Origin: Loxodes magnus
Taxonomy: Eukaryota; Ciliophora; Karyorelictea; Loxodida; Loxodidae
Direction: 5' to 3'
DNA length: 64,000 bases
Assembly: GCA_946699065.1 (NCBI GenBank)
Contig: CAMPDV010002392.1
Span: forward strand, 1 to 64,000
Both the position numbers and the translations under genes were made by a program. Under the pieces are notes generated by a model, which was given only the letters and a program-made list of their open reading frames with translations, was not told the DNA's origin and did no database searches. Positions 27,801-61,999 of the stretch are shown here, one piece after another. Numbering within the stretch: position 1 is the stretch's first letter; each line of letters opens with the position of its first letter.

Positions 27801-30800
27801 TCAGTTTTTAGTGTTGAAGCTTTGATAAGATTAGAGTTATAAAGAGAAGTTAGTTTTAAAAGTAAAGTGAAAGAGAAAAGTAAGAAAAGAGAAGCGATTT
27901 AACATTTAAAGAGTTAAAGCTTTGATAAGATTAGAGTTATAAAGAGAAGTTAGTTTTAAAAGTAAAGTGAAAGAGAAAAGTAAGAAAAGAAGAGTGATTT
28001 CAGTTTTGAAGATTCGAAGCTTTGATAAGATTAGAGTTATAAAGAGAAGTTAGTTTTAAAAGTAAAGTGAAAGAGAAAAGTAAGAAAAGAAGAGTGATTT
28101 CAGTTTTTAGTGTTGAAGCTTTGATAAGATTAGAGTTATAAAGAGAAGTTAGTTTTAAAAGTAAAGTGAAGAAGAAAAGTTAGAAAAGAAGAGTGATTTC
28201 ATTTTTGAAGATTCGAAGCTTTGCTAAGATTAGAGTTATAAAGAGAAGTTAGTTTTAAAAGTAAAGTGAAAGAGAAAAGTAAGAAAAGAAGAGTGATTTC
28301 AGTTTTGAAGATTCGAAGCTTTGATAAGATTAGAGTTATAAAGAGAAGTTAGTTTTAAAAGTAAAGTGAAGAAGAAAAGTTAGAAAAGAAGAGTGATTTC
28401 ATTTTTGAAGATTCGAAGCTTTGCTAAGATTAGAGTTATAAAGAGAAGTTAGTTTTAAAAGTAAAGTGAAAGAGAAAAGTAAGAAAAGAAGAGTGATTTC
28501 AGTTTTGAAGATTCGAAGCTTTGATAAGATTAGAGTTATAAAGAGAAGTTAGTTTTAAAAGTAAAGTGAAGAAAAAAAGTAAGAAAAGAAGAGTGATTTC
28601 AGTTTTTAGTGTTGAAGCTTTGATAAGATTAGAGTTATAAAGAGAAGTTAGTTTTAAAAGTAAAGTGAAGAAGAAAAGTAAGAAAAAAGAAGCGATTTCA
28701 GTTTTTAGTGTTGAAGCTTTGATAAGATTAGAGTTATAAAGAGAAGTTAGTTTTAAAAGTAAAGTGAAGAAAAAAAGTAAGAAAAGAAGAGTGATTTCAG
28801 TTTTTAGTGTTGAAGCTTTGATAAGATTAGAGTTATAAAGAGAAGTTAGTTTTAAAAGTAAAGTGAAGAAGAAAAGAAAGAAAAGAAGAGTGATTTCAGT
28901 TTTTAGTGTTGAAGCTTTGATAAGATTAGAGTTATAAAGAGAAGTTAGTTTTAAAAGTAAAGTGAAGAAGAAAAGAAAGAAAAGAAGAGTGATTTCAGTT
29001 TTTAGTGTTGAAGCTTTGATAAGATTAGAGTTATAAAGAGAAGTTAGTTTTAAAAGTAAAGTGAAGAAGAAAAGTAAGAAAAGAAGAGTGATTTCAGTTT
29101 TTAGTGTTGAAGCTTTGATAAAATTAGAGTTATAAAGAGAAGTTAGTTTTAAAAGTAAAGTGAAGAAGAAAAGTAAGAAAAGAAGAGTGATTTCAGTTTT
29201 TAGTGTTGAAGCTTTGATAAGATTAGAGTTATAAAGAGAAGTTAGTTTTAAAAGTAAAGTGAAGAAGAAAAGTAAGAAAAGAAGAGTGATTTCAGTTTTT
29301 AGTGTTGAAGCTTTGATAAGATTAGAGTTATAAAGAGAAGTTAGTTTTAAAAGTAAAGTGAAGAAAAAAAGTAAGAAAAGAAGAGTGATTTCAGTTTTTA
29401 GTGTTGAAGCTTTGATAAGATTAGAGTTATAAAGAGAAGTTAGTTTTAAAAGTAAAGTGAAGAAGAAAAGTAAGAAAAGAAGAGTGATTTCATTTTTGAA
29501 GATTCGAAGCTTTGCTAAGATTAGAGTTATAAAGAGAAGTTAGTTTTAAAAGTAAAGTGAAGAAGAAAAGTAAGAAAAGAAGAGTGATTTCAGTTTTTAG
29601 TGTTGAAGCTTTGATAAAATTAGAGTTATAAAGAGAAGTTAGTTTTAAAAGTAAAGTGAAGAAGAAAAGTAAGAAAAGAAGAGTGATTTCAGTTTTTAGT
29701 GTTGAAGCTTTGATAAGATTAGAGTTATAAAGAGAAGTTAGTTTTAAAAGTAAAGTGAAGAAAAAAAGTAAGAAAAGAAGAGTGATTTCAGTTTTTAGTG
29801 TTGAAGCTTTGATAAGATTAGAGTTATAAAGAGAAGTTAGTTTTAAAAGTAAAGTGAAGAAGAAAAGTAAGAAAAGAAGAGTGATTTCAGTTTTTAGTGT
29901 TGAAGCTTTGATAAGATTAGAGTTATAAAGAGAAGTTAGTTTTAAAAGTAAAGTGAAGAAGAAAAGTAAGAAAAGAAGAGTGATTTCAGTTTTTAAGTGT
30001 TGAAGCTTTGATAAGATTAGAGTTATAAAGAGAAGTTAGTTTTAAAAGTAAAGTGAAGAAGAAAAGTAAGAAAAGAAGAGTGATTTCAGTTTTTAGTGTT
30101 GAAGCTTTGATAAGATTAGAGTTATAAAGAGAAGTTAGTTTTAAAAGTAAAGTGAAGAAGAAAAGAAAGAAAAGAAGAGTGATTTCAGTTTTTAGTGTTG
30201 AAGCTTTGATAAGATTAGAGTTATAAAGAGAAGTTAGTTTTAAAAGTAAAGTGAAGAAGAAAAGTAAGAAAAGAAGAGTGATTTCATTTTTGAAGATTCG
30301 AAGCTTTGCTAAGATTAGAGTTATAAAGAGAAGTTAGTTTTAAAAGTAAAGTGAAGAAGAAAAGTAAGAAAAGAAGAGTGATTTCAGTTTTTAGTGTTGA
30401 AGCTTTGATAAGATTAGAGTTATAAAGAGAAGTTAGTTTTAAAAGTAAAGTGAAGAAGAAAAGTAAGAAAAGAAGAGTGATTTCAGTTTTTAGTGTTGAA
30501 GCTTTGATAAGATTAGAGTTATAAAGAGAAGTTAGTTTTAAAAGTAAAGTGAAGAAGAAAAGTAAGAAAAGAAGAGTGATTTCAGTTTTTAGTGTTGAAG
30601 CTTTGATAAGATTAGAGTTATAAAGAGAAGTTAGTTTTAAAAGTAAAGTGAAGAAGAAAAGTAAGAAAAGAAGAGTGATTTCAGTTTTTAGTGTTGAAGC
30701 TTTGATAAGATTAGAGTTATAAAGAGAAGTTAGTTTTAAAAGTAAAGTGAAAGAGAAAAGTAAGAAAAGAAGAGTGATTTCATTTTTGAAGATTCGAAGC

Positions 30801-33800
30801 TTTGCTAAGATTAGAGTTATAAAGAGAAGTTAGTTTTAAAAGTAAAGTGAAGAAGAAAAGTAAGAAAAAAGAAGCGATTTCAGTTTTTAGTGTTGAAGCT
30901 TTGATAAGATTAGAGTTATAAAGAGAAGTTAGTTTTAAAAGTAAAGTGAAGAAGAAAAGTAAGAAAAGAAGAGTGATTTCAGTTTTGAAGATTCGAAGCT
31001 TTGATAAGATTAGAGTTATAAAGAGAAGTTAGTTTTAAAAGTAAAGTGAAGAAGAAAAGTAAGAAAAGAAGAGTGATTTCAGTTTTTAGTGTTGAAGCTT
31101 TGATAAGATTAGAGTTATAAAGAGAAGTTAGTTTTAAAAGTAAAGTGAAGAAGAAAAGTAAGAAAAGAAGAGTGATTTCAGTTTTTAGTGTTGAAGCTTT
31201 GATAAGATTAGAGTTATAAAGAGAAGTTAGTTTTAAAAGTAAAGTGAAGAAGAAAAGTAAGAAAAGAAGAGTGATTTCAGTTTTGAAGATTCGAAGCTTT
31301 GATAAGATTAGAGTTATAAAGAGAAGTTAGTTTTAAAAGTAAAGTGAAGAAGAAAAGTAAGAAAAGAAGAGTGATTTCAGTTTTGAAGATTCGAAGCTTT
31401 GATAAGATTAGAGTTATAAAGAGAAGTTAGTTTTAAAAGTAAAGTGAAGAAGAAAAGTAAGAAAAGAAGAGTGATTTCAGTTTTTAAGTGTTGAAGCTTT
31501 GATAAGATTAGAGTTATAAAGAGAAGTTAGTTTTAAAAGTAAAGTGAAGAAGAAAAGTAAGAAAAGAAGAGTGATTTCAGTTTTTAGTGTTGAAGCTTTG
31601 ATAAGATTAGAGTTATAAAGAGAAGTTAGTTTTAAAAGTAAAGTGAAGAAGAAAAGTAAGAAAAGAAGAGTGATTTCAGTTTTTAGTGTTGAAGCTTTGA
31701 TAAGATTAGAGTTATAAAGAGAAGTTAGTTTTAAAAGTAAAGTGAAAGAGAAAAGTAAGAAAAGAAGAGTGATTTCAGTTTTGAAGATTCGAAGCTTTGA
31801 TAAGATTAGAGTTATAAAGAGAAGTTAGTTTTAAAAGTAAAGTGAAGAAGAAAAGTAAGAAAAGAAGAGTGATTTCAGTTTTTAGTGTTGAAGCTTTGAT
31901 AAGATTAGAGTTATAAAGAGAAGTTAGTTTTAAAAGTAAAGTGAAAGAGAAAAGTAAGAAAAGAAGAGTGATTTCAGTTTTTAGTGTTGAAGCTTTGATA
32001 AGATTAGAGTTATAAAGAGAAGTTAGTTTTAAAAGTAAAGTGAAGAAGAAAAGTTAGAAAAGAAGAGTGATTTCAGTTTTTAGTGTTGAAGCTTTGATAA
32101 GATTAGAGTTATAAAGAGAAGTTAGTTTTAAAAGTAAAGTGAAAGAGAAAAGTAAGAAAAGAAGAGTGATTTCATTTTTGAAGATTCGAAGCTTTGATAA
32201 GATTAGAGTTATAAAGAGAAGTTAGTTTTAAAAGTAAAGTGAAGAAGAAAAGTAAGAAAAGAGAAGCGATTTAACATTTGAAGAGTTAAAGCTTTGATAA
32301 GATTAGAGTTATAAAGAGAAGTTAGTTTTAAAAGTAAAGTGAAAGAGAAAAGTAAGAAAAGAAGAGTGATTTCAGTTTTTAGTGTTGAAGCTTTGATAAG
32401 ATTAGAGTTATAAAGAGAAGTTAGTTTTAAAAGTAAAGTGAAGAAAAAAAGTAAGAAAAGAAGAGTGATTTCAGTTTTTAGTGTTGAAGCTTTGATAAGA
32501 TTAGAGTTATAAAGAGAAGTTAGTTTTAAAAGTAAAGTGAAGAAGAAAAGTAAGAAAAGAAGAGTGATTTCAGTTTTTAGTGTTGAAGCTTTGATAAGAT
32601 TAGAGTTATAAAGAGAAGTTAGTTTTAAAAGTAAAGTGAAGAAGAAAAGTAAGAAAAGAAGAGTGATTTCAGTTTTTAGTGTTGAAGCTTTGATAAGATT
32701 AGAGTTATAAAGAGAAGTTAGTTTTAAAAGTAAAGTGAAGAAGAAAAGAAAGTAAAGAAGAGTGATCTCAGTTTTGAAGAGTTAAAGCTTTGATAAGATT
32801 AGAGTTATAAAGAGAAGTTAGTTTTAAAAGTAAAGTGAAGAAGAGAAGTTAGAAAAGAAGAGTGATTTCAGTTTTTAGTGTTGAAGCTTTGATAAGATTA
32901 GAGTTATAAAGAGAAGTTAGTTTTAAAAGTAAAGTGAAGAAGAAAAGTAAGAAAAGAAGAGTGATTTCAGTTTTTAGTGTTGAAGCTTTGATAAGATTAG
33001 AGTTATAAAGAGAAGTTAGTTTTAAAAGTAAAGTGAAGAAGAAAAGTAAGAAAAGAAGAGTGATTTCAGTTTTTAGTGTTGAAGCTTTGATAAGATTAGA
33101 GTTATAAAGAGAAGTTAGTTTTAAAAGTAAAGTGAAAGAGAAAAGTAAGAAAAGAAGAGTGATTTCAGTTTTTAGTGTTGAAGCTTTGATAAGATTAGAG
33201 TTATAAAGAGAAGTTAGTTTTAAAAGTAAAGTGAAAGAGAAAAGTAAGAAAAGAAGAGTGATTTCATTTTTGAAGATTCGAAGCTTTGCTAAGATTAGAG
33301 TTATAAAGAGAAGTTAGTTTTAAAAGTAAAGTGAAAGAGAAAAGTAAGAAAAGAAGAGTGATTTCAGTTTTGAAGATTCGAAGCTTTGCTAAGATTAGAG
33401 TTATAAAGAGAAGTTAGTTTTAAAAGTAAAGTGAAAGAGAAAAGTAAGAAAAGAAGAGTGATTTCAGTTTTGAAGATTCGAAGCTTTGATAAGATTAGAG
33501 TTATAAAGAGAAGTTAGTTTTAAAAGTAAAGTGAAGAAAAAAAGTAAGAAAAGAAGAGTGATTTCAGTTTTTAGTGTTGAAGCTTTGATAAGATTAGAGT
33601 TATAAAGAGAAGTTAGTTTTAAAAGTAAAGTGAAGAAAAAAAGTAAGAAAAAAGAAGCGATTTCAGTTTTTAGATTCGAAGCTTTGCTAAGATTAGAGTT
33701 ATAAAGAGAAGTTAGTTTTAAAAGTAAAGTGAAGAAGAAAAGTAAGAAAAGAAGAGTGATTTCAGTTTTTAAGTGTTGAAGCTTTGATAAGATTAGAGTT

Positions 33801-36800
33801 ATAAAGAGAAGTTAGTTTTAAAAGTAAAGTGAAGAAGAAAAGTAAGAAAAGAAGAGTGATTTCAGTTTTTAGTGTTGAAGCTTTGATAAGATTAGAGTTA
33901 TAAAGAGAAGTTAGTTTTAAAAGTAAAGTGAAGAAGAAAAGAAAGAAAAGAAGAGTGATTTCAGTTTTTAGTGTTGAAGCTTTGATAAGATTAGAGTTAT
34001 AAAGAGAAGTTAGTTTTAAAAGTAAAGTGAAGAAGAAAAGTTAGAAAAGAAGAGTGATTTTATTTTTGAAGATTCGAAGCTTTGCTAAGATTAGAGTTAT
34101 AAAGAGAAGTTAGTTTTAAAAGTAAAGTGAAGAAGAAAAGTAAGAAAAGAAGAGTGATTTCAGTTTTTAGTGTTGAAGCTTTGATAAGATTAGAGTTATA
34201 AAGAGAAGTTAGTTTTAAAAGTAAAGTGAAGAAGAAAAGTAAGAAAAGAAGAGTGATTTCATTTTTGAAGATTCGAAGCTTTGCTAAGATTAGAGTTATA
34301 AAGAGAAGTTAGTTTTAAAAGTAAAGTGAAGAAGAAAAGTAAGAAAAGAAGAGTGATTTCAGTTTTTAGTGTTGAAGCTTTGATAAGATTAGAGTTATAA
34401 AGAGAAGTTAGTTTTAAAAGTAAAGTGAAGAAAAAAAGTAAGAAAAGAAGAGTGATTTCAGTTTTGAAGATTCGAAGCTTTGATAAGATTAGAGTTATAA
34501 AGAGAAGTTAGTTTTAAAAGTAAAGTGAAGAAGAAAAGTAAGAAAAGAAGAGTGATTTCAGTTTTTAGTGTTGAAGCTTTGATAAGATTAGAGTTATAAA
34601 GAGAAGTTAGTTTTAAAAGTAAAGTGAAGAAGAAAAGTAAGAAAAGAAGAGTGATTTCAGTTTTTAGTGTTGAAGCTTTGATAAGATTAGAGTTATAAAG
34701 AGAAGTTAGTTTTAAAAGTAAAGTGAAGAAGAAAAGTTAGAAAAGAAGAGTGATTTCAGTTTTTAGTGTTGAAGCTTTGATAAGATTAGAGTTATAAAGA
34801 GAAGTTAGTTTTAAAAGTAAAGTGAAAGAGAAAAGTAAGAAAAGAAGAGTGATTTCAGTTTTGAAGATTCGAAGCTTTGATAAGATTAGAGTTATAAAGA
34901 GAAGTTAGTTTTAAAAGTAAAGTGAAAGAGAAAAGTAAGAAAAAAGAAGCGATTTCAGTTTTTAGTGTTGAAGCTTTGATAAGATTAGAGTTATAAAGAG
35001 AAGTTAGTTTTAAAAGTAAAGTGAAGAAGAAAAGTAAGAAAAGAAGAGTGATTTCAGTTTTTAGTGTTGAAGCTTTGATAAAATTAGAGTTATAAAGAGA
35101 AGTTAGTTTTAAAAGTAAAGTGAAGAAGAAAAGTAAGAAAAGAAGAGTGATTTCAGTTTTGAAGATTCGAAGCTTTGATAAGATTAGAGTTATAAAGAGA
35201 AGTTAGTTTTAAAAGTAAAGTGAAGAAGAAAAGAAAGAAAAGAAGAGTGATTTCAGTTTTGAAGATTCGAAGCTTTGATAAGATTAGAGTTATAAAGAGA
35301 AGTTAGTTTTAAAAGTAAAGTGAAAGAGAAAAGTAAGAAAAGAAGAGTGATTTCAGTTTTGAAGATTCGAAGCTTTGATAAGATTAGAGTTATAAAGAGA
35401 AGTTAGTTTTAAAAGTAAAGTGAAGAAGAAAAGTTAGAAAAGAAGAGTGATTTCAGTTTTTAGTGTTGAAGCTTTGATAAAATTAGAGTTATAAAGAGAA
35501 GTTAGTTTTAAAAGTAAAGTGAAAGAGAAAAGTAAGAAAAAAGAAGCGATTTCAGTTTTTAGTGTTGAAGCTTTGATAAGATTAGAGTTATAAAGAGAAG
35601 TTAGTTTTAAAAGTAAAGTGAAGAAGAAAAGTAAGAAAAGAAGAGTGATTTCAGTTTTTAGTGTTGAAGCTTTGATAAGATTAGAGTTATAAAGAGAAGT
35701 TAGTTTTAAAAGTAAAGTGAAGAAGAAAAGTAAGAAAAGAAGAGTGATTTCAGTTTTTAGTGTTGAAGCTTTGATAAGATTAGAGTTATAAAGAGAAGTT
35801 AGTTTTAAAAGTAAAGTGAAAGAGAAAAGTAAGAAAAGAAGAGTGATTTCATTTTTGAAGATTCGAAGCTTTGATAAGATTAGAGTTATAAAGAGAAGTT
35901 AGTTTTAAAAGTAAAGTGAAGAAGAAAAGTAAGAAAAGAGAAGCGATTTAACATTTGAAGAGTTAAAGCTTTGATAAGATTAGAGTTATAAAGAGAAGTT
36001 AGTTTTAAAAGTAAAGTGAAGAAGAAAAGTAAGAAAAGAAGAGTGATTTCAGTTTTTAGTGTTGAAGCTTTGATAAGATTAGAGTTATAAAGAGAAGTTA
36101 GTTTTAAAAGTAAAGTGAAGAAAAAAAGTAAGAAAAGAAGAGTGATTTCAGTTTTTAGTGTTGAAGCTTTGATAAGATTAGAGTTATAAAGAGAAGTTAG
36201 TTTTAAAAGTAAAGTGAAGAAGAAAAGTAAGAAAAGAAGAGTGATTTCATTTTTGAAGATTCGAAGCTTTGCTAAGATTAGAGTTATAAAGAGAAGTTAG
36301 TTTTAAAAGTAAAGTGAAGAAGAAAAGTAAGAAAAGAAGAGTGATTTCAGTTTTTAGTGTTGAAGCTTTGATAAAATTAGAGTTATAAAGAGAAGTTAGT
36401 TTTAAAAGTAAAGTGAAGAAGAAAAGTAAGAAAAGAAGAGTGATTTCAGTTTTTAGTGTTGAAGCTTTGATAAGATTAGAGTTATAAAGAGAAGTTAGTT
36501 TTAAAAGTAAAGTGAAAGAGAAAAGTAAGAAAAGAAGAGTGATTTCAGTTTTTAGTGTTGAAGCTTTGATAAGATTAGAGTTATAAAGAGAAGTTAGTTT
36601 TAAAAGTAAAGTGAAGAAGAAAAGTAAGAAAAGAAGAGTGATTTCAGTTTTTAGTGTTGAAGCTTTGATAAGATTAGAGTTATAAAGAGAAGTTAGTTTT
36701 AAAAGTAAAGTGAAGAAGAAAAGTAAGAAAAGAAGAGTGATTTCAGTTTTTAAGTGTTGAAGCTTTGATAAGATTAGAGTTATAAAGAGAAGTTAGTTTT

Positions 36801-36964
36801 AAAAGTAAAGTGAAGAAGAAAAGTAAGAAAAGAAGAGTGATTTCAGTTTTTAGTGTTGAAGCTTTGATAAGATTAGAGTTATAAAGAGAAGTTAGTTTTA
36901 AAAGTAAAGTGAAGAAGAAAAGAAAGAAAAGAAGAGTGATTTCAGTTTTTAGTGTTGAAGCTTT

Positions 36965-39900
36965 GATAAGATTAGAGTTATAAAGAGAAGTTAGTTTTAA
37001 AAGTAAAGTGAAAGAGAAAAGTAAGAAAAGAAGAGTGATTTCATTTTTGAAGATTCGAAGCTTTGATAAGATTAGAGTTATAAAGAGAAGTTAGTTTTAA
37101 AAGTAAAGTGAAGGAGAAAAGTAAGAAAAGAAGAGTGATTTCAGTTTTTAGTGTTGAAGCTTTGATAAGATTAGAGTTATAAAGAGAAGTTAGTTTTAAA
37201 AGTAAAGTGAAGAAGAAAAGAAAGAAAAGAAGAGTGATTTCAGTTTTGAAGATTCGAAGCTTTGATAAGATTAGAGTTATAAAGAGAAGTTAGTTTTAAA
37301 AGTAAAGTGAAGAAGAAAAGTAAGAAAAGAAGAGTGATTTCAGTTTTTAGTGTTGAAGCTTTGATAAAATTAGAGTTATAAAGAGAAGTTAGTTTTAAAA
37401 GTAAAGTGAAGAAGAAAAGTAAGAAAAGAAGAGTGATTTCAGTTTTTAGTGTTGAAGCTTTGATAAGATTAGAGTTATAAAGAGAAGTTAGTTTTAAAAG
37501 TAAAGTGAAGAAGAAAAGAAAGAAAAGAAGAGTGATTTCAGTTTTTAGTGTTGAAGCTTTGATAAGATTAGAGTTATAAAGAGAAGTTAGTTTTAAAAGT
37601 AAAGTGAAAGAGAAAAGTAAGAAAAGAAGAGTGATTTCAGTTTTGAAGATTCGAAGCTTTGATAAGATTAGAGTTATAAAGAGAAGTTAGTTTTAAAAGT
37701 AAAGTGAAGAAAAAAAGTAAGAAAAGAAGAGTGATTTCAGTTTTTAGTGTTGAAGCTTTGATAAGATTAGAGTTATAAAGAGAAGTTAGTTTTAAAAGTA
37801 AAGTGAAGAAGAAAAGTAAGAAAAGAAGAGTGATTTCAGTTTTTAGTGTTGAAGCTTTGATAAGATTAGAGTTATAAAGAGAAGTTAGTTTTAAAAGTAA
37901 AGTGAAGAAGAAAAGTAAGAAAAGAAGAGTGATTTCAGTTTTTAAGTGTTGAAGCTTTGATAAGATTAGAGTTATAAAGAGAAGTTAGTTTTAAAAGTAA
38001 AGTGAAGAAGAAAAGTAAGAAAAGAAGAGTGATTTCAGTTTTTAGTGTTGAAGCTTTGATAAGATTAGAGTTATAAAGAGAAGTTAGTTTTAAAAGTAAA
38101 GTGAAGAAGAAAAGTAAGAAAAGAAGAGTGATTTCAGTTTTTAGTGTTGAAGCTTTGATAAGATTAGAGTTATAAAGAGAAGTTAGTTTTAAAAGTAAAG
38201 TGAAAGAGAAAAGTAAGAAAAGAAGAGTGATTTCATTTTTGAAGATTCGAAGCTTTGCTAAGATTAGAGTTATAAAGAGAAGTTAGTTTTAAAAGTAAAG
38301 TGAAGAAGAAAAGTAAGAAAAAAGAAGCGATTTCAGTTTTTAGTGTTGAAGCTTTGATAAGATTAGAGTTATAAAGAGAAGTTAGTTTTAAAAGTAAAGT
38401 GAAGAAGAAAAGTAAGAAAAGAAGAGTGATTTCAGTTTTGAAGATTCGAAGCTTTGATAAGATTAGAGTTATAAAGAGAAGTTAGTTTTAAAAGTAAAGT
38501 GAAGAAGAAAAGTAAGAAAAGAAGAGTGATTTCAGTTTTTAGTGTTGAAGCTTTGATAAGATTAGAGTTATAAAGAGAAGTTAGTTTTAAAAGTAAAGTG
38601 AAGAAGAAAAGTAAGAAAAGAAGAGTGATTTCAGTTTTTAGTGTTGAAGCTTTGATAAGATTAGAGTTATAAAGAGAAGTTAGTTTTAAAAGTAAAGTGA
38701 AGAAGAAAAGTAAGAAAAGAAGAGTGATTTCAGTTTTTAAGTGTTGAAACTTTGATAAGATTAGAGTTATAAAGAGAAGTTAGTTTTAAAAGTAAAGTGA
38801 AGAAGAAAAGTAAGAAAAGAAGAGTGATTTCAGTTTTTAGTGTTGAAGCTTTGATAAGATTAGAGTTATAAAGAGAAGTTAGTTTTAAAAGTAAAGTGAA
38901 GAAGAAAAGAAAGAAAAGAAGAGTGATTTCAGTTTTTAGTGTTGAAGCTTTGATAAGATTAGAGTTATAAAGAGAAGTTAGTTTTAAAAGTAAAGTGAAA
39001 GAGAAAAGTAAGAAAAGAAGAGTGATTTCAGTTTTTAGTGTTGAAGCTTTGATAAGATTAGAGTTATAAAGAGAAGTTAGTTTTAAAAGTAAAGTGAAGA
39101 AGAGAAGTTAGAAAAGAAGAGTGATTTCATTTTTGAAGATTCGAAGCTTTGCTAAGATTAGAGTTATAAAGAGAAGTTAGTTTTAAAAGTAAAGTGAAAG
39201 AGAAAAGTAAGAAAAGAAGAGTGATTTCAGTTTTGAAGATTCGAAGCTTTGATAAGATTAGAGTTATAAAGAGAAGTTAGTTTTAAAAGTAAAGTGAAAG
39301 AGAAAAGTAAGAAAAGAAGAGTGATTTCAGTTTTTAGTGTTGAAGCTTTGATAAGATTAGAGTTATAAAGAGAAGTTAGTTTTAAAAGTAAAGTGAAAGA
39401 GAAAAGTAAGAAAAGAAGAGTGATTTCATTTTTGAAGATTCGAAGCTTTGATAAGATTAGAGTTATAAAGAGAAGTTAGTTTTAAAAGTAAAGTGAAGAA
39501 GAAAAGAAAGAAAAGAAGAGTGATTTCAGTTTTTAGTGTTGAAGCTTTGATAAGATTAGAGTTATAAAGAGAAGTTAGTTTTAAAAGTAAAGTGAAAGAG
39601 AAAAGTAAGAAAAGAAGAGTGATTTCAGTTTTTAGTGTTGAAGCTTTGATAAGATTAGAGTTATAAAGAGAAGTTAGTTTTAAAAGTAAAGTGAAGAAGA
39701 AAAGTAAGAAAAGAAGAGTGATTTCAGTTTTTAGTGTTGAAGCTTTGATAAGATTAGAGTTATAAAGAGAAGTTAGTTTTAAAAGTAAAGTGAAAGAGAA
39801 AAGTAAGAAAAGAAGAGTGATTTCAGTTTTTAGTGTTGAAGCTTTGATAAGATTAGAGTTATAAAGAGAAGTTAGTTTTAAAAGTAAAGTGAAGAAGAAA

Positions 39901-42900
39901 AGTAAGAAAAGAAGAGTGATTTCAGTTTTTAGTGTTGAAGCTTTGATAAGATTAGAGTTATAAAGAGAAGTTAGTTTTAAAAGTAAAGTGAAAGAGAAAA
40001 GTAAGAAAAGAAGAGTGATTTCATTTTTGAAGATTCGAAGCTTTGATAAGATTAGAGTTATAAAGAGAAGTTAGTTTTAAAAGTAAAGTGAAGAAGAAAA
40101 GAAAGAAAAGAAGAGTGATTTCAGTTTTTAGTGTTGAAGCTTTGCTAAGATTAGAGTTATAAAGAGAAGTTAGTTTTAAAAGTAAAGTGAAGAAGAAAAG
40201 TAAGAAAAGAAGAGTGATTTCAGTTTTTAGTGTTGAAGCTTTGATAAGATTAGAGTTATAAAGAGAAGTTAGTTTTAAAAGTAAAGTGAAGAAGAAAAGT
40301 AAGAAAAGAAGAGTGATTTCAGTTTTTAGTGTTGAAGCTTTGATAAGATTAGAGTTATAAAGAGAAGTTAGTTTTAAAAGTAAAGTGAAGAAGAAAAGTA
40401 AGAAAAGAAGAGTGATTTCAGTTTTTAGTGTTGAAGCTTTGATAAGATTAGAGTTATAAAGAGAAGTTAGTTTTAAAAGTAAAGTGAAGAAGAAAAGTAA
40501 GAAAAGAAGAGTGATTTCAGTTTTTAGTGTTGAAGCTTTGATAAGATTAGAGTTATAAAGAGAAGTTAGTTTTAAAAGTAAAGTGAAGAAGAAAAGAAAG
40601 AAAAGAAGAGTGATCTCAGTTTTGAAGAGTTAAAGCTTTGATAAGATTAGAGTTATAAAGAGAAGTTAGTTTTAAAAGTAAAGTGAAAGAGAAAAGTAAG
40701 AAAAGAAGAGTGATTTCATTTTTGAAGATTCGAAGCTTTGATAAGATTAGAGTTATAAAGAGAAGTTAGTTTTAAAAGTAAAGTGAAGGAGAAAAGTAAG
40801 AAAAGAAGAGTGATTTCAGTTTTTAGTGTTGAAGCTTTGATAAGATTAGAGTTATAAAGAGAAGTTAGTTTTAAAAGTAAAGTGAAGAAGAAAAGTAAGA
40901 AAAGAAGAGTGATTTCAGTTTTGAAGATTCGAAGCTTTGATAAGATTAGAGTTATAAAGAGAAGTTAGTTTTAAAAGTAAAGTGAAGAAGAAAAGTAAGA
41001 AAAGAAGAGAGATTTCAGTTTTTAGTGTTGAAGCTTTGATAAAATTAGAGTTATAAAGAGAAGTTAGTTTTAAAAGTAAAGTGAAGAAGAAAAGTAAGAA
41101 AAGAAGAGTGATTTCAGTTTTTAGTGTTGAAGCTTTGATAAGATTAGAGTTATAAAGAGAAGTTAGTTTTAAAAGTAAAGTGAAGAAGAAAAGAAAGAAA
41201 AGAAGAGTGATTTCAGTTTTTAGTGTTGAAGCTTTGATAAGATTAGAGTTATAAAGAGAAGTTAGTTTTAAAAGTAAAGTGAAAGAGAAAAGTAAGAAAA
41301 GAAGAGTGATTTCAGTTTTGAAGATTCGAAGCTTTGATAAGATTAGAGTTATAAAGAGAAGTTAGTTTTAAAAGTAAAGTGAAGAAAAAAAGTAAGAAAA
41401 GAAGAGTGATTTCAGTTTTTAGTGTTGAAGCTTTGATAAGATTAGAGTTATAAAGAGAAGTTAGTTTTAAAAGTAAAGTGAAGAAGAAAAGTAAGAAAAG
41501 AAGAGTGATTTCAGTTTTTAGTGTTGAAGCTTTGATAAGATTAGAGTTATAAAGAGAAGTTAGTTTTAAAAGTAAAGTGAAGAAGAAAAGTAAGAAAAGA
41601 AGAGTGATTTCAGTTTTTAAGTGTTGAAGCTTTGATAAGATTAGAGTTATAAAGAGAAGTTAGTTTTAAAAGTAAAGTGAAGAAGAAAAGTAAGAAAAGA
41701 AGAGTGATTTCAGTTTTTAGTGTTGAAGCTTTGATAAGATTAGAGTTATAAAGAGAAGTTAGTTTTAAAAGTAAAGTGAAGAAGAAAAGTAAGAAAAGAA
41801 GAGTGATTTCAGTTTTTAGTGTTGAAGCTTTGATAAGATTAGAGTTATAAAGAGAAGTTAGTTTTAAAAGTAAAGTGAAAGAGAAAAGTAAGAAAAGAAG
41901 AGTGATTTCATTTTTGAAGATTCGAAGCTTTGCTAAGATTAGAGTTATAAAGAGAAGTTAGTTTTAAAAGTAAAGTGAAGAAGAAAAGTAAGAAAAAAGA
42001 AGCGATTTCAGTTTTTAGTGTTGAAGCTTTGATAAGATTAGAGTTATAAAGAGAAGTTAGTTTTAAAAGTAAAGTGAAGAAGAAAAGTAAGAAAAGAAGA
42101 GTGATTTCAGTTTTGAAGATTCGAAGCTTTGATAAGATTAGAGTTATAAAGAGAAGTTAGTTTTAAAAGTAAAGTGAAGAAGAAAAGTAAGAAAAGAAGA
42201 GTGATTTCAGTTTTTAGTGTTGAAGCTTTGATAAGATTAGAGTTATAAAGAGAAGTTAGTTTTAAAAGTAAAGTGAAGAAGAAAAGTAAGAAAAGAAGAG
42301 TGATTTCAGTTTTTAGTGTTGAAGCTTTGATAAGATTAGAGTTATAAAGAGAAGTTAGTTTTAAAAGTAAAGTGAAGAAGAAAAGTAAGAAAAGAAGAGT
42401 GATTTCAGTTTTTAAGTGTTGAAACTTTGATAAGATTAGAGTTATAAAGAGAAGTTAGTTTTAAAAGTAAAGTGAAGAAGAAAAGTAAGAAAAGAAGAGT
42501 GATTTCAGTTTTTAGTGTTGAAGCTTTGATAAGATTAGAGTTATAAAGAGAAGTTAGTTTTAAAAGTAAAGTGAAGAAGAAAAGAAAGAAAAGAAGAGTG
42601 ATTTCAGTTTTTAGTGTTGAAGCTTTGATAAGATTAGAGTTATAAAGAGAAGTTAGTTTTAAAAGTAAAGTGAAAGAGAAAAGTAAGAAAAGAAGAGTGA
42701 TTTCAGTTTTTAGTGTTGAAGCTTTGATAAGATTAGAGTTATAAAGAGAAGTTAGTTTTAAAAGTAAAGTGAAGAAGAGAAGTTAGAAAAGAAGAGTGAT
42801 TTCATTTTTGAAGATTCGAAGCTTTGCTAAGATTAGAGTTATAAAGAGAAGTTAGTTTTAAAAGTAAAGTGAAAGAGAAAAGTAAGAAAAGAAGAGTGAT

Positions 42901-44314
42901 TTCAGTTTTGAAGATTCGAAGCTTTGATAAGATTAGAGTTATAAAGAGAAGTTAGTTTTAAAAGTAAAGTGAAAGAGAAAAGTAAGAAAAGAAGAGTGAT
43001 TTCAGTTTTTAGTGTTGAAGCTTTGATAAGATTAGAGTTATAAAGAGAAGTTAGTTTTAAAAGTAAAGTGAAAGAGAAAAGTAAGAAAAGAAGAGTGATT
43101 TCAGTTTTTAGTGTTGAAGCTTTGATAAGATTAGAGTTATAAAGAGAAGTTAGTTTTAAAAGTAAAGTGAAGAAGAAAAGTAAGAAAAGAAGAGTGATTT
43201 CAGTTTTTAGTGTTGAAGCTTTGATAAGATTAGAGTTATAAAGAGAAGTTAGTTTTAAAAGTAAAGTGAAAGAGAAAAGTAAGAAAAGAAGAGTGATTTC
43301 AGTTTTGAAGATTCGAAGCTTTGATAAGATTAGAGTTATAAAGAGAAGTTAGTTTTAAAAGTAAAGTGAAGAAGAAAAGTAAGAAAAGAAGAGTGATTTC
43401 AGTTTTTAGTGTTGAAGCTTTGATAAGATTAGAGTTATAAAGAGAAGTTAGTTTTAAAAGTAAAGTGAAAGAGAAAAGTAAGAAAAGAAGAGTGATTTCA
43501 GTTTTTAGTGTTGAAGCTTTGATAAGATTAGAGTTATAAAGAGAAGTTAGTTTTAAAAGTAAAGTGAAGAAGAAAAGTAAGAAAAGAAGAGTGATTTCAG
43601 TTTTTAGTGTTGAAGCTTTGATAAGATTAGAGTTATAAAGAGAAGTTAGTTTTAAAAGTAAAGTGAAAGAGAAAAGTAAGAAAAGAAGAGTGATTTCATT
43701 TTTGAAGATTCGAAGCTTTGATAAGATTAGAGTTATAAAGAGAAGTTAGTTTTAAAAGTAAAGTGAAGAAGAAAAGAAAGAAAAGAAGAGTGATTTCAGT
43801 TTTTAGTGTTGAAGCTTTGATAAGATTAGAGTTATAAAGAGAAGTTAGTTTTAAAAGTAAAGTGAAAGAGAAAAGTAAGAAAAGAAGAGTGATTTCAGTT
43901 TTTAGTGTTGAAGCTTTGATAAGATTAGAGTTATAAAGAGAAGTTAGTTTTAAAAGTAAAGTGAAGAAGAAAAGTAAGAAAAGAAGAGTGATTTCAGTTT
44001 TTAGTGTTGAAGCTTTGATAAGATTAGAGTTATAAAGAGAAGTTAGTTTTAAAAGTAAAGTGAAGAAGAAAAGTAAGAAAAGAAGAGTGATTTCAGTTTT
44101 TAGTGTTGAAGCTTTGATAAGATTAGAGTTATAAAGAGAAGTTAGTTTTAAAAGTAAAGTGAAGAAGAAAAGTAAGAAAAGAAGAGTGATTTCAGTTTTT
44201 AGTGTTGAAGCTTTGATAAGATTAGAGTTATAAAGAGAAGTTAGTTTTAAAAGTAAAGTGAAGAAGAAAAGAAAGAAAAGAAGAGTGATCTCAGTTTTGA
44301 AGAGTTAAAGCTTT
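36965..44314 (+). repeat. Tandem higher-order repeat, two copies of 3675 bp
   Basis: About 37 units at 36965-40639 are repeated at 40640-44314. Private markers agree on the offset: GTGAAGGAG (37108/40783), GTGTTGAAAC, which destroys the HindIII site (38741/42416), AAGAAGAGAAGTTAG (39094/42769) and TGATCTCAG (40611/44286). A stretch near 39.4-40.1 and 43.1-43.8 kb differs in variant order but keeps the same total length. Confidence 0.88.
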
Positions 44315-46889
44315 GATAAGATTAGAGTTATAAAGAGAAGTTAGTTTTAAAAGTAAAGTGAAGAAGAAAAGTTAGAAAAGAAGAGTGATTTCAGTTTTTA
44401 GTGTTGAAGCTTTGATAAGATTAGAGTTATAAAGAGAAGTTAGTTTTAAAAGTAAAGTGAAGAAGAAAAGTAAGAAAAGAAGAGTGATTTCAGTTTTTAG
44501 TGTTGAAGCTTTGATAAGATTAGAGTTATAAAGAGAAGTTAGTTTTAAAAGTAAAGTGAAGAAGAAAAGAAAGAAAAGAAGAGTGATTTCAGTTTTTAGT
44601 GTTGAAGCTTTGATAAGATTAGAGTTATAAAGAGAAGTTAGTTTTAAAAGTAAAGTGAAAGAGAAAAGTAAGAAAAGAAGAGTGATTTCATTTTTGAAGA
44701 TTCGAAGCTTTGATAAGATTAGAGTTATAAAGAGAAGTTAGTTTTAAAAGTAAAGTGAAAGAGAAAAGTAAGAAAAGAAGAGTGATTTCAGTTTTTAGTG
44801 TTGAAGCTTTGATAAGATTAGAGTTATAAAGAGAAGTTAGTTTTAAAAGTAAAGTGAAGAAGAAAAGTAAGAAAAGAAGAGTGATTTCAGTTTTTAGTGT
44901 TGAAGCTTTGATAAGATTAGAGTTATAAAGAGAAGTTAGTTTTAAAAGTAAAGTGAAGAAGAAAAGTAAGAAAAGAAGAGTGATTTCAGTTTTTAGTGTT
45001 GAAGCTTTGATAAGATTAGAGTTATAAAGAGAAGTTAGTTTTAAAAGTAAAGTGAAGAAGAAAAGTAAGAAAAAAGAAGCGATTTCAGTTTTTAGTGTTG
45101 AAGCTTTGATAAGATTAGAGTTATAAAGAGAAGTTAGTTTTAAAAGTAAAGTGAAGAAGAAAAGTAAGAAAAGAAGAGTGATTTCAGTTTTGAAGAGTTA
45201 AAGCTTTGATAAGATTAGAGTTATAAAGAGAAGTTAGTTTTAAAAGTAAAGTGAAGAAGAAAAGTAAGAAAAGAAGAGTGATTTCAGTTTTTAGTGTTGA
45301 AGCTTTGATAAGATTAGAGTTATAAAGAGAAGTTAGTTTTAAAAGTAAAGTGAAGAAAAAAAGTAAGAAAAGAAGAGTGATTTCAGTTTTTAGTGTTGAA
45401 GCTTTGATAAGATTAGAGTTATAAAGAGAAGTTAGTTTTAAAAGTAAAGTGAAGAAGAAAAGTTAGAAAAGAAGAGTGATTTTAGTTTTTGAAGATTCGA
45501 AGCTTTGATAAGATTAGAGTTATAAAGAGAAGTTAGTTTTAAAAGTAAAGTGAAGAAGAAAAGTTAGAAAAGAAGAGTGATTTCATTTTTGAAGATTCGA
45601 AGCTTTGCTAAGATTAGAGTTATAAAGAGAAGTTAGTTTTAAAAGTAAAGTGAAAGAGAAAAGTAAGAAAAGAAGAGTGATTTCAGTTTTGAAGATTCGA
45701 AGCTTTGATAAGATTAGAGTTATAAAGAGAAGTTAGTTTTAAAAGTAAAGTGAAGAAAAAAAGTAAGAAAAGAAGAGTGATTTCAGTTTTTAGTGTTGAA
45801 GCTTTGATAAGATTAGAGTTATAAAGAGAAGTTAGTTTTAAAAGTAAAGTGAAGAAGAAAAGTAAGAAAAGAAGAGTGATTTCAGTTTTTAGTGTTGAAG
45901 CTTTGATAAGATTAGAGTTATAAAGAGAAGTTAGTTTTAAAAGTAAAGTGAAGAAGAAAAGTAAGAAAAGAAGAGTGATTTCAGTTTTGAAGATGTTGAA
46001 GCTTTGATAAGATTAGAGTTATAAAGAGAAGTTAGTTTTAAAAGTAAAGTGAAGAAGAAAAGTAAGAAAAGAAGAGTGATTTCAGTTTTTAGTGTTGAAG
46101 CTTTGATAAGATTAGAGTTATAAAGAGAAGTTAGTTTTAAAAGTAAAGTGAAGAAGAAAAGTAAGAAAAGAAGAGTGATTTCAGTTTTTAGTGTTGAAGC
46201 TTTGATAAGATTAGAGTTATAAAGAGAAGTTAGTTTTAAAAGTAAAGTGAAGAGAGAAAAGTAAGAAAAGAAGAGTGATTTCATTTTTGAAGAGTTCGAA
46301 GCTTTGCTAAGATTAGAGTTATAAAGAGAAGTTAGTTTTAAAAGTAAAGTGAAGAAGAAAAGTAAGAAAAGAGAAGCGATTTAACATTTGAAGAGTTAAA
46401 GCTTTGATAAGATTAGAGTTATAAAGAGAAGTTAGTTTTAAAAGTAAAGTGAAGAAGAAAAGTAAGAAAAGAAGAGTGATTTCAGTTTTGAAGATTCGAA
46501 GCTTTGATAAGATTAGAGTTATAAAGAGAAGTTAGTTTTAAAAGTAAAGTGAAGAAGAAAAGTAAGAAAAGAAGAGTGATTTCAGTTTTTAGTGTTGAAG
46601 CTTTGATAAGATTAGAGTTATAAAGAGAAGTTAGTTTTAAAAGTAAAGTGAAGAAGAAAAGTAAGAAAAGAAGAAGTGATTTCAGTTTTTAGTGTTGAAG
46701 CTTTGATAAGATTAGAGTTATAAAGAGAAGTTAGTTTTAAAAGTAAAGTGAAGAAGAAAAGTAAGAAAAGAAGAGTGATTTCAGTTTTTAAGTGTTGAAG
46801 CTTTGATAAGATTAGAGTTATAAAGAGAAGTTAGTTTTAAAAGTAAAGTGAAGAAAAAAAGTAAGAAAAGAAGAGTGATTTCAGTTTTT

Positions 46890-47360
46890 AGTGTTGAAGC
46901 TAAGATTGATAGAGATTAGAGTAAAGTATAGAAGAGAAGTTGAAGTTTTAAAGAGTAAAGAGAAAGTGTAAAGTGAAGAAAAAAAGTAAGAAAAGAAGAG
47001 TGATGTTCTTTGATAAGATTAGAGTTATAAAGAGAAGTTAGTTTTAAAAGTAAAGTAGTAAGAAAAGAGAAGCGTTGTTAAAGCTTTGATAAGATTAGAG
47101 TTATAAAGAGAAGTTAGTTTTAGAGTGATTTCAGTAGTGTTGAAGATGAAGAGAGAAAAGTAAAAGTAAAAAGAAGAGTGATGAAGAGTTAAAGCAGTTA
47201 AAGTTTAGAAAAGAAGAGTGAAGATTGAAGCTTTGCTAAGATTAGAGTTATAAAGAGAAGTTAGTTTTAAAAGTAAAGTGAAGAAGAAAAGTAAGAAAAG
47301 AAGAGTGATTTCAGTTTTGAAGATTCGAAGCTTTGATAAGATTAGAGTTATAAAGAGAAG
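46890..47360 (+). repeat. Frayed right edge of satellite array
   Basis: After the last regular unit the sequence keeps satellite words (AAGATTGATAGAGATTAG, AGTTGAAGTTTTAAAG) but loses the unit order. A final, nearly perfect stretch of about 130 bp then ends abruptly at 47360. Degenerate edge monomers are usual for satellites, because edges escape homogenisation. Confidence 0.8.
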
Positions 47361-55386: not shown

Positions 55387-57672
55387 ATGTCAGCGGCCAA
55401 GTGCGAAGCATGTGTGAAAGATTTCAACTAAGAGCTTAGAAAGCCTAGGCAGTTGGACTGCGGATGTATTCTCTGTGAGAAATGCATAAAAACTGTATAC
55501 AACCTCTATTAGAAATTTACTTGCAACAAGCATAACATCATTACGTAAAGACCAATTGAGTCATTATCAATTATGAACTTAGTAAGGCAATAGGCATAGA
55601 ACCTTATCAATCCGTAGGACATCTGCTCTATTCATAGATAGTATTCCTTAACTCTATATTGTGTATAGGACAGTATAAGAATATGTGTACAATGTGAATA
55701 AGAATCGCATTAAGGACATAGATGTATCGCTACGTAGGATGCAATCTAGCCTTTAAGGAGTTACTTGGAATCCACTTTTAGAGCTATCAAGTAGAGACTG
55801 GTCTAATATATATCTACATTGTATTAATGGTATAGTCAGATAAGTTAATTGTAGATATCCAGAATGGCTAATATGGTTTAGGTATAGCAATCGATCAAGT
55901 AGAGTATCAAGTAAGCATGCTAGAAGATGGTGAATAACTAATAAAACTAAATAAAGAAGTAAATTTAGTTTATTAAAGAAACATCTGATTACTATAAGGT
56001 GATAGGAAGTTAGGTCGAAGCTATCTCAAATAGTTCTTAGGATAATATCAATCAGTGTGAGAACAAGAAGAGACACTTGAATCAATTTGAGTTAGCAATC
56101 TAGGAAAGGTTCTAGAGTATCTCCTAATCATCCTCTGTTGTATGTCGAGAGAATTTAAGCTTATAGGCTCTCTAGAATTTTATCATTTCTTATCTAATGC
56201 AGTAGCTTTAGCCTAACCAAGTATACTAGAGTTACATGGCCTAAGCAAGCTAGATCAAGCAACTATAGTTAGCCATAAAGCGTTTATACTAAGACTTTCA
56301 ATAACGGTTCCTCTACTAAGAAAAAAAAGAATAAGACTTTCAACTCTAGTTAAGCAATAAGGACTAATAACTTCAGGCCAAGTAGTTCTAGTATGCTTAA
56401 GACATCTAAGAGTTGCAACAACAAAAACTCATTCTTCAATAGGAATTAGATCTTAGTCAATCATCCATCAATCAGTTATAAGACTAGTTACATAAATTAG
56501 CATAAGAGAATATCAATTACAAAGAGTAAATGAGAATCTTATTGAAGGAGTAGGAGAGTATGAAATCTGCATCTATTTAATTGGAAGCAGATAATAAGAA
56601 TAATACTGACTAGCTTAGATAAAAAGAATAGTAATTAAAAGATTTGCCATATTCTTTGGAATATAAGTCTTAAGCTAGATAAATTCAAGTCAGTGAATGG
56701 AGTGAGTTGGTGAAGGATTCTATCTATAAGTATCTAATACTTAAGAGAGTGAATAATTCTCCACCAAGGATAGCAGTATATAGGAGAGTATTCTATGATA
56801 CCAATAAGATATAATCTTACAAGTTGGACAGTATCAATGGCTCCTGTGTTTACAATGTGGTAGCATAAATGACTCCAATATGAGGCAATTGATCCTCGAC
56901 ACATTAGATATCTGATGAGTTATTAATCTAGGTGGGTGGTAACTCAACTAAATCACATCTGGATAAGATCTTATAAATAACTATAGGTAGTGATTCAGTG
57001 ATAAAAGCCTCAGCTTCTTTGATCTAGCCAAGAGCAATTAGATAAATGGGATATGACAATGACAGATTGTTGTATATATTAGGAGGGATGGATCCTTAAT
57101 CAAATTCTGGTTCATCTCATCCTTATTATAATTACTACAATTCATTCGAGGTGTACGACATAGTTTTGAATAAATCTGTGTCATTGTTGAGTAATAAGGA
57201 TTGCATCGCTTATAATGGAATATGGGTATCACATGAGAGAGTGTGGATAGTGGGTGGTCAAATATAAAGTTCAGATTTATCTAGTAATTTCAGCAATTCA
57301 AGTTTGGTATCATCATATGACGTGATGTTGAGTGTGTATTAGTAGTATGGGATGTAGTTACCTAAGCCGGCATCTTCATTGGCAAGTGTGTGAGTGAATG
57401 AGACTGAGTGTGCTTATATTTGGGACAGTTATAATCTTCTTTAGTAAACTTGTGTGTTTGACACTAGGTCCATGATAAGGGATGGTAGTTAATATCCTTA
57501 AGATACAAGCAAAACTGGTTTCTGATACAATGGTCAATAAGTGAATAATGTCATATGGATGTGGAGTAGTGATTCTAAGTCATAGGCAAATTTGATATAT
57601 TATTACGACATAAAAGGAGGTAGTTTTTTTAAGTCTAGAGAGTGGAAATCTATGCAATTGGATGTGAATTGA
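55387..57672 (+). CDS. RING-like/B-box/coiled-coil/kelch protein
   Basis: One frame runs from ATG 55387 to TGA 57670-57672 (762 codons), with more than 60 in-frame TAA/TAG read as Gln. A RING-like finger lies at residues 6-49 (CEAC, CGCILCEKC, CNKH; the usual His is Cys). A B-box type 2 lies at 80-111 with ligands C80, H83, C92, D95, C100, C103, H108 and H111. A long Gln-rich coiled coil lies at about 305-435 (ELQQQKLILQQEL, NQLQDQLHKLAQE). Kelch-like repeats follow from about 510 (LLIQVGGN, LYILGGMD, FEVYDIV, VWIVGGQ). The layout is that of TRIM-like proteins, many of which are ubiquitin E3 ligases. That activity is inferred only. Four internal TGA (56881, 56890, 57391, 57523) interrupt the kelch part, while the other two frames hold many more. 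They may encode Trp, and the first two could instead lie in an intron. If UGA is always a stop, the product is 498 aa and lacks the kelch part. Confidence 0.8.
56860..56907 (+). other. Candidate 48-nt intron (alternative to sense UGA)
   Basis: The segment begins GTAGCA and ends CATTAG, is a multiple of three, starts at a codon boundary and contains both TGA codons at 56881 and 56890. Removing it would join NGSCVYNV to ISDELLIQVGGN in frame. The retained reading, with UGA as Trp (MTPIWGNWSSTHQ), is equally protein-like. The sequence alone does not decide, and the later TGAs at 57391 and 57523 have no equally neat intron. Confidence 0.35.
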
Positions 57673-59947: not shown

Positions 59948-60760
59948 ATGGCATCTAAGAAATAATAGAATTCTCCAACAAAATCTAATAATTAACCAGA
60001 CTTTGCTAACTATTTCTATTGTTTCAATTGGATAATTAGAAGTTAGTAAAAAAGTTTAAGACTTTAAATAAATAATTTAATCTCTCATGCTAACATTAAC
60101 TAATTGGTAAATTAATAGGACTCTAAGCAAGAAATTAAATAGTAGACTATTTCCTTAGAAATAGATAGAAAGGTAAATTGGTCAAATAGAATGAAATTTA
60201 AGATAAAATTTTTACCAGAGGATCAGATAACTGGAGCATATCAAGCTCAATTAATTATCAAATTCAGAATCATAAGGAGAAGAGAATCCGAACTAAACTT
60301 ATTCTATTAGAAAAGAAAAATTAAATGCTGATATTGCTATAAGTATGGACATAAGGTTAATTAGTGTTAACGATTTAAGAAGAAACAATCTTAAGTAACT
60401 GAAAGAGAAATCTAAAATTTATTTAAGATCTTATGCTTGACAACTAGAAGACTTTCAAGAAAAAATATTTTAACCATTCTTAGAAACTTCAAAAATCTAA
60501 AAGGCATTGAGAGATACAATCTGAATTTGACTTACAAGAATTAGCAAGAGGAGAAAATAAAAATGTTATAAGAATTTACGATTAAAAAAATAAAGTATAA
60601 TACGATCTCGAGACCTATTAATTACTACAAAACTCTAATTTATGGCAAGCTAAATAAAGGTGATGTCACATTATTATATTATTATATTAATTTAAAATAA
60701 AAAAATGAACATAAAAATTTGAAAGACAACGAAGTAAACGTAAATTAAAGTGTAATGTGA
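59948..60760 (+). CDS. Zinc-knuckle (Gag-like) protein, copy 1
   Basis: The frame runs from ATG 59948 to TGA 60758-60760 (270 codons plus stop). It starts MASKKQQNSPTK and has a Lys/Gln/Ile-rich body. At residues 127-140 a CCHC zinc knuckle reads C-[TGA]-YCYKYGHKVNQC, that is C-x2-C-x4-H-x4-C. The only internal TGA of the frame (60329) sits directly after the first Cys, where zinc knuckles normally have an aromatic residue, so Trp is the natural reading. The other two frames have four or five TGA each over the same span. CCHC knuckles of this kind bind nucleic acid in Gag/ORF1 proteins of retroelements and in some RNA-binding proteins. No polymerase ORF follows. A diverged tandem paralogue starts 440 bp downstream. 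If UGA is strictly a stop, the product is 127 aa and the knuckle is lost. Confidence 0.65.
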
Positions 60761-61200
60761 AAAGAATAATAGGATTTTTAAGGAGTTTAAGAGTAAAAGA
60801 GAATAAGAGAAATGTAAGAGGACAAGAAGTAATTTAAAATAAAAAAAATTGCAAAGACAAAAGTATTTAACATTAGCTAAATTAAAAATTAAATTAAAAA
60901 TAAAAAAAAAATTAAAAAAAAATTAATCATTAAAAAGATATCTTTATGAAATAGAAGCGATGAAAAGAAGCTGAAAAAAAATAATCTTTTAACTCTTCAA
61001 TTTAAAAAATAGAAAAGATAATAAGATAGATTGAAACATCATATAATGGATTTTAAATAAATAGAAGAGATAATTTAAATAAATTATATAGAATATATAA
61101 AGAAAAATAAAAGGATGCACTTCATCTGCATAGAGCATATCAGCTGTACTGCTTGTATACTATTTAAAAACATTTCTTAGATATATTATATAAAAATAAA
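60761..61200. other. Spacer between the two zinc-knuckle genes
   Basis: The spacer is A-rich with runs such as AAATTAAAAATAAAAAAAAA. No gene was recognised. Both genes are preceded by an ATAATATAATAT-like or ATATATTATATAAAA stretch directly before the ATG, which may belong to a shared promoter or element end. Confidence 0.5.
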
Positions 61201-61999
61201 ATGGTACCTAAGAAATAACAGACTTCACCAACAAAACTTTATAAAACTTAGAAGGATGTAGTCAATGATCTCTGCCATCTTTAGATAGAGAATTAAGAAA
61301 TAACAAAAGTAATTAAAGATCTTTATAAACTAACTAATGAATTGTAAAATTCTGTAGAAATTGTAAAATAGGAAAATTCAACACTACGATAGGAATTGCT
61401 CTAAACCCACACTTGCAACAAATTTAATGTGGAATTTTACAGACAGAACAAATAGCAATAGAAATTTAAAATTTGAAAATACTAAACCAGAAAAACTTAA
61501 AGAAAGTGATTCATTGGAAATAGAATAACAAACTGCAACAAAATATATTCCCTATCGGAAAATAATGATATGTTGACATTGCAAGCTTTCATTATATAAA
61601 GTAAGAAATTGCTACCAATTTTAATAAAAATAAAAGAGATTAATAATTCAAATGGTAAGATATGCTTAAAATAAGCAAGACAAGTGAATGTTTACTTAAT
61701 CTGAAAAAAACTCAAACTAAGCAAAAAAGCTCCTTATATCTAAAAGGCAGTAAACTATTTCAATGAAAATGATAGCGATTAGGCCTATCTAAAAAAATCA
61801 TGGAAAAAAATCTTAAAAATATCAAGAAACATGATAATGAAGATACAAGCAAATTTAAAGTGATAAATTATTTTTAAACAATAAATTAACAAACTAATAA
61901 GTGGTAAACCAAATAAAGGTGAGACCAGAAATAATAGTGTTATGCTATAATAATATATTAGAATAAAGAAATATCATAAGTTTGATTTTGATAAAATGA
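61201..61999 (+). pseudogene. Zinc-knuckle (Gag-like) protein, copy 2, frameshifted
   Basis: ATG 61201 opens MVPKKQQTSPTK, closely matching copy 1 (MASKKQQNSPTK). A coiled-coil-like stretch follows (NQEITKVIKDLYKLTNELQ), and this frame ends at TGA 61474 after 91 aa. Coding character moves near 61445 to another frame (NLKFENTKPEKLKESDS, TATKYIPYRKIMIC) and reaches C-[TGA]-HCKLSLYKVRNC at 61571-61612. This aligns without gaps with the copy 1 knuckle, including the TGA at the same place. The knuckle His is Tyr here. The rest (KSQKYQETWQWRYKQ if TGA is Trp) can be read to a TGA at 61997. The frameshift and lost His suggest a non-functional copy. Confidence 0.55.

Follow-up and report, generated by a model that had tools for sequence, protein, structure and literature searches.

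In-frame UGA codons of Loxodes magnus in conserved kinases, in a repeated zinc-knuckle module and in a RING/B-box/Kelch-like gene family with hypervariable patches

In the karyorelict nuclear code (NCBI genetic code 27; Swart 2016 and the Loxodes magnus paper of 2024, with Seah 2022 as cited in them), UAA and UAG encode glutamine, and UGA encodes tryptophan inside genes and serves also as a stop; the genome analysed here (705,730,643 bases in 7,843 contigs) appears to share these features, and no departure from the code was found in it. The published MAC assembly of Loxodes magnus, with 706 Mbp and many tandem repeats, has been assigned to this code (UAR=Gln, UGA=Trp or stop) (PMC11441545). 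The Condylostoma-type code (table 28) is alike in that UGA=Trp goes with UAR=Gln and that stops depend on context (PMC4967479); however, all three codons are also stops in that code, whereas the gene ends examined here, those of two eRF1 genes and of nine copies of the RBCC-Kelch gene described below, are UGA. The conclusion of the earlier note about the code is correct and already published, and since table 27 is in print for the genus, the claim itself matters little and its value is that of an independent check. The more unusual feature of the locus is the RBCC-Kelch family. TRIM/RBCC proteins resemble it in the order of RING, B-box and Q-rich parts and in a C-terminal region with short patches that differ from copy to copy, but that region is B30.2 in TRIM/RBCC proteins and a set of Kelch-like repeats here, and the RING and Kelch matches here lie below the Pfam cut-offs.

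The window, i.e. the whole stretch of 64,000 nucleotides that was analysed (positions 1 to 64,000 of contig CAMPDV010002392.1, assembly GCA_946699065.1), contains the features collected in Table 1. Tandem Repeats Finder, run on 44000-64000, placed the 99-bp unit of the satellite at 44000-46986 with 95% matches, and the array probably reaches position 1, as judged from the uniform GC skew and the regular spacing of ORFs. The satellite has an extreme strand bias (GC skew about 0.8) and adjoins the RBCC-Kelch gene and the two knuckle stretches that follow it, which together (55387-61950) look like a module. A Pfam search in six frames of 49001-64000 gave only the RING/B-box gene and one unrelated match below cut-off.

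Table 1 Features of the window discussed in the text
Feature	Position	Strand	Remarks
99-bp tandem satellite, G- and A-rich on + strand	1..47300	.	right end approximate
RING / B-box / Q-rich / Kelch-like gene (RBCC-Kelch)	55387..57672	+	761 aa under table 27
Kelch-like region; 23 hypervariable codons, grouped in short patches	56881..57600	+	4-6 amino-acid states among 9 copies
Hypervariable patch with in-frame UGAs at 56881 and 56890	56881..56892	+	codon comparison among copies
In-frame UGA read as Trp	57391..57393	+	TGA in 9/9 aligned copies; conserved frame goes on
In-frame UGA read as Trp	57523..57525	+	TGA in 9/9 aligned copies; conserved frame goes on
UGA, probable true stop	57670..57672	+	TGA in 9/9 aligned copies; conservation stops there
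Knuckle stretch 1	59948..61000	+	ATG 59948, table 27 read-through to 61000; 3 TGA, 9 TAG, 20 TAA
CCHC-type motif CWYCYKYGHKVNQC	60326..60367	+	UGA 60329-60331, in frame with ATG 59948
Knuckle stretch 2	61201..61950	+	begins like stretch 1, its similarity to which switches between frames
Degenerate knuckle CWHCKLSLYKVRNC	61571..61612	+	Tyr for His; UGA 61574-61576; out of frame with ATG

All these observations are explained together, with a probability of about 0.95, by the karyorelict code, with UAA/UAG read as Gln and UGA as Trp within genes and also as stop, and by knuckle TGAs that represent one ancestral TGA in a repeated module. The earlier note had proposed such a code, and this is supported by the kinases, the RBCC-Kelch gene, the ends of the eRF1 genes and the published Loxodes code. 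Its argument from the two knuckle TGAs was too weak to carry much weight, because the matching TGAs were copied by descent, as one inherited event, and no protein-level constraint was detected by permutation in the knuckle copies.

The earlier note had described two paralogous zinc-knuckle genes, both with TGA directly after the first Cys of a C-x2-C-x4-H-x4-C motif. TGA does follow the first Cys codon in both stretches, at 60329-60331 after TGC and at 61574-61576 after TGT. The motif is complete in stretch 1 (60326-60367; C-W-Y-C-Y-K-Y-G-H-K-V-N-Q-C under table 27), while stretch 2 (C-W-H-C-K-L-S-L-Y-K-V-R-N-C) has Tyr in the position of the His ligand and therefore does not contain it. The distance from ATG 61201 to the motif of stretch 2 is 370 bases, which places them in different frames. 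Blastn with lenient scores shows the two stretches to be homologous (E 3e-24), their starts match (MASKKQQNSPTK and MVPKKQQTSPTK, with MxxKKQQxSPTK in common), and several synonymous differences lie inside the knuckle; they are not independent genes, but both belong to one module that is repeated in the genome. In the six frames of 47301-64000, the loose pattern C..C....[HY]....C occurred three times, namely in both knuckles and in the B-box of another gene, and no match to Pfam zf-CCHC was obtained at E<=1 for the product of either stretch. An aromatic residue after the first Cys, which had been taken as usual for knuckles, is indeed common in 27 CNBP-like knuckles from four loci of the genome analysed (Tyr or Phe in 23, His in 4), but Trp was found in 0/27.

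When the product of stretch 1 was used as a query, at least 119 matches were found in the genome, and the best 30 of them, the window's own included, were used for the copy analyses. TGA was present in both knuckles of all 30 best-matching copies, and a genome-wide count of the exact first-knuckle motif (26 bases) gave 65 occurrences with TGA and none with TGG. These facts indicate that the shared position of the TGA is due to descent. The two TGAs at the same position were therefore rejected as independent observations, both being in repeat copies; a stop codon common to the copies of a repeat should be counted once. On contig C738, a match spanning the knuckle lists no TGA. DNA identity of the 30 best-matching copies was 93-100% over about 1 kb, and the listed protein identity of 57-91% was thus rejected as a measure of protein divergence, since most of the difference comes from frame shifts.

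As likely as not, the knuckle stretches belong to the repeated module as decayed or non-coding parts, in which a TGA, whether stop or not, was present before the duplication and has never been decoded, so that the code would be right for other reasons. A permutation test for too few replacement changes, run in three frames, gave no signal in any segment of either stretch (all P>0.05), whereas P=0.0002 was obtained for the RBCC-Kelch gene next to them in its proper frame. Single-base indels are common, such as a +1 at 60047 in 18 of the 30 copies, and they separate the ATG of stretch 1 from the frame of its knuckle in 14 of 30, which also fits decay, as does the loss of frame of stretch 2 within the window itself. 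However, of the three frames of stretch 1 the window frame had the lowest pairwise pN/pS in all five segments compared (0.10 for the knuckle itself, 0.29 for the part behind it), none of the 30 copies has lost the net frame between the knuckle and 60628 (three of them keep it through compensating indels), and both stretches have kept the common start and the knuckle despite heavy divergence. Variable sites of stretch 1 from the ATG to the knuckle fell on the three codon positions as 19, 19 and 25 of 140. Where the two methods disagree on stretch 1, the permutation test was weighted above pairwise pN/pS, and the evidence that the knuckle stretches code is mixed and weak. Introns of Loxodes magnus are about 17-25 bp long (PMC11441545) and could hide some of the indels; for example, the 19 bp at 60042-60060, which begin with GT and end with AG, form a candidate intron covering the indel at 60047, but its removal alone puts the knuckle of the window out of frame with the ATG. 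Assembly error as the source of all knuckle indels was rejected, because ten copies of the neighbouring gene show only one 3-bp indel in 55387-56880 and many knuckle indels are common to several copies. Under the preferred explanation, the single ancestral TGA of the repeated module would be consistent with the table 27 code and would be no test of it.

A test of in-frame UGA is provided by the RBCC-Kelch gene of the same window. The B-box was recognised by Pfam with 35.3 bits (cut-off 24.1) and is followed by a Q-rich stretch; the RING match (17.6 bits) was below its cut-off of 25.2, and the Kelch models (E 0.003-0.13) were all under cut-off. The mean pLDDT of the predicted structure was 31 for the Kelch-like part. 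In the table 27 frame, the window copy passes four UGAs, against eight TGG. A 1.6-kb piece of the gene used as query gave at least 40 matches in the genome, the window included, with 88-100% identity. Ten copies were fetched and nine were used in codon analyses; the copy L073 was left out for its masked N, owing to which the DNA alignment is unreliable past about 56881. Between 55387 and 56880, variable sites among the ten copies were mostly third positions, and the sole indel was of 3 bp. The shortage of replacement changes (P=0.0002) was found alike in the RING/B-box and coil parts, and the test gave P=0.037 between the second and third UGA and P=0.052 after the third; for the 48 codons after the last sense UGA taken alone, constraint was not significant (P=0.17). 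When the hypervariable codons were removed, which favours such an outcome, the constraint downstream of the UGAs was stronger (P=0.0006 and 0.0076). No constraint was found in the shifted frames. The gene is thus under protein-level constraint downstream of in-frame UGAs. In this one family, the 48 codons from the last sense UGA to the stop in the window copy can be compared with the depletion of sense UGA in about 20 codons before the stop, a trait of table 27.

Kinases gave a wider view of UGA in conserved genes. At least one in-frame TGA was present in 91 of the 136 listed Pkinase matches, with 157 TGAs in total. From 11 kinases with three or more TGAs, eight were chosen and examined, and most of their TGAs (18 of 26) fall on three Trp columns, namely the D-x-W column (6 TGA and 2 TGG of 8), the Trp before I/V/L-S (7 TGA of 8) and the HxW column (5 TGA and 1 TGG of 6). 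UGA is therefore located at conserved Trp positions of kinases. Six of the 26 TGAs lie off conserved Trp columns, and a sister kinase has TGG at two of these. Two of the kinases were also compared with PDB chains, with X placed at each TGA. In L083, two further TGAs align with Trp of the best match MEKK2 (9p6a) and a third aligns without Trp; at the two positions, the next-best relative MAP3K5 has Tyr and Phe. In L082, two of four TGAs, both among the 18, align with Trp of the calcium-dependent kinase 4mvf, and two with other residues. The other TGAs are at variable positions.

The use of UGA differs between genes, as can be seen from many in-frame TGAs in kinases and few or none in HSP70 and eRF1. 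The 31 best HSP70 matches, which are full length and include many near-identical array copies, contained no TGA, while a near-full-length match on contig C342 (positions 2-596) contained 2. HSP70 has few Trp. HSP70 genes stand in tandem arrays on contigs C45, C86 and C854, and on C854 matches split into two parts recur, the second part having 6 TGA. Two eRF1 paralogues (L010 and L011) were found 35 kb apart on contig C196, and neither has a TGA before the terminal UGA, where the recognisable protein stops. Behind its last recognisable residues, L010 has a close succession of three in-frame UGAs, and L011 of two. A Pelota-like gene (L009) has one in-frame TGA at what is not an obvious Trp site. 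The HSP70, kinase and eRF1 matches run on through many TAA and TAG, which shows both to be sense codons, and in the genomic sequence conservation in the eRF1 and RBCC-Kelch genes ends at UGA, consistent with UGA as a stop.

The table 6 code, in which UAR is Gln and UGA is only a stop, would agree with the best HSP70 matches and with both eRF1 genes, which lack internal UGA and, in the case of eRF1, run to UGA; it would however require all UGA-bearing genes to be pseudogenes, among them 91 of 136 strong kinase matches, and protein constraint in the RBCC-Kelch gene persists after UGA, so that this code is very improbable here. Other ciliate codes read UGA as another amino acid, and it is scarcely credible that UGA is here Cys as in Euplotes, or Sec via SECIS, because UGA alternates with TGG at two kinase Trp columns and aligns with Trp of PDB relatives, although the knuckle alone cannot distinguish between residues.

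Human eRF1 contains the motifs TASNIKS and YLCDNKF. In the two eRF1 paralogues these are replaced by RAQNIKS and FLCENTF, as the motif check proposed in the note shows. A search for tRNA-Trp(UCA) had also been proposed there; the UCA-type pattern was not enriched (82 matches vs 314 for the reversed control), while the 3'-half pattern of tRNA-Trp(CCA) type gave 255 matches vs 54 for its reversed control. Among the 100 CCA-type matches listed, 77 lie in two tandem arrays, on contigs C67 (482324-491201) and C148 (155465-163831) for the listed part, with periods of about 187 bp and 241 bp. The tRNA-Trp(CCA)-like 3' halves read TCCAGATCGAC in the arrays and TCCAGATCGAA in two genes on contig C110, and the expected position 43, as assigned from the 3' half, is C in the arrays and A in the two C110 genes. 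A 4-bp anticodon stem has been reported for Loxodes tRNA-Trp (PMC13092985; PMC12005148, the latter citing Swart 2023). Going by the literature, UGA would be read by tRNA-Trp(CCA) with such a shortened anticodon stem, and would terminate translation close to the 3' end of the mRNA. A tRNA family search yielded mainly one tRNA-Lys repeat, and ARAGORN, run on 28 of 30 loci from it, called tRNA-Lys in all 28, in some also tRNA-Ala, and in none tRNA-Trp. tRNA-Lys(TTT) genes are repeated many times, some of them paired with tRNA-Ala(TGC) (L012-L041).

The RBCC-Kelch family, with its short hypervariable patches within a Kelch-like region that is conserved elsewhere, is new here. Among the 8 records listed of 1,875, a literature search showed none on a family of this kind in Loxodes, and the main text of the Loxodes magnus genome paper does not contain the words kelch, RING, B-box, TRIM, hypervariable or satellite. 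In the Kelch region, nine copies have a single codon in 187 of 273 columns. Sixteen of the 23 hypervariable codons lie at most 3 residues after, or 14-18 residues before, one of five GG-like strand ends, where 3.4 were expected, with windows chosen post hoc. Loops so placed can make up a single binding face in Kelch propellers. UGA is itself one of the alternatives at four variable codons, three of which are within the 23. At 56881, other copies have TAT, ACT, TCT or TTT; at 56890, GCC, ACT or TTT; and at the other two codons the alternatives are TAT and AGA, and AAT, AGA, AGT and AAA, respectively.

The patches vary at all three codon positions, and the excess of replacement changes inside them was not significant (P=0.10). 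Informative column pairs incompatible with a single tree made up 156/276 in the Kelch framework, 1957/4560 in the N-terminal part and 33/171 within the patches; those outside the patches point to exchange between RBCC-Kelch copies. The patches may have been made by diversifying selection, by templated exchange or by both. Taken jointly, these results allow a tentative reading, which we hold to be somewhat less than an even chance, of a dispersed, satellite-associated repertoire of at least 40 TRIM-like genes, in which the framework would be homogenised by recombination and the patches, at two loop positions per Kelch-like repeat, would be kept highly diverse, as for recognition (of non-self, parasite or mating partner) feeding a ubiquitin ligase, with UGA as an interchangeable sense codon there. 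Since UGA is among the interchangeable codons of the variable patches, an ambiguous stop codon would then take part in the diversity. If true, a protist TRIM-like repertoire with hypervariable loops would bear on the diversification of recognition proteins in single-celled eukaryotes. The natural copies with UGA or another codon at a loop position also offer a ready test of UGA decoding. The association with the knuckles is regular: a knuckle match follows 39 of the 40 listed RBCC-Kelch copies on the same strand, 2.0-4.7 kb downstream of the 1.6-kb piece, the exception being on contig C2731. Some contigs carry knuckle copies at intervals of about 25-50 kb.
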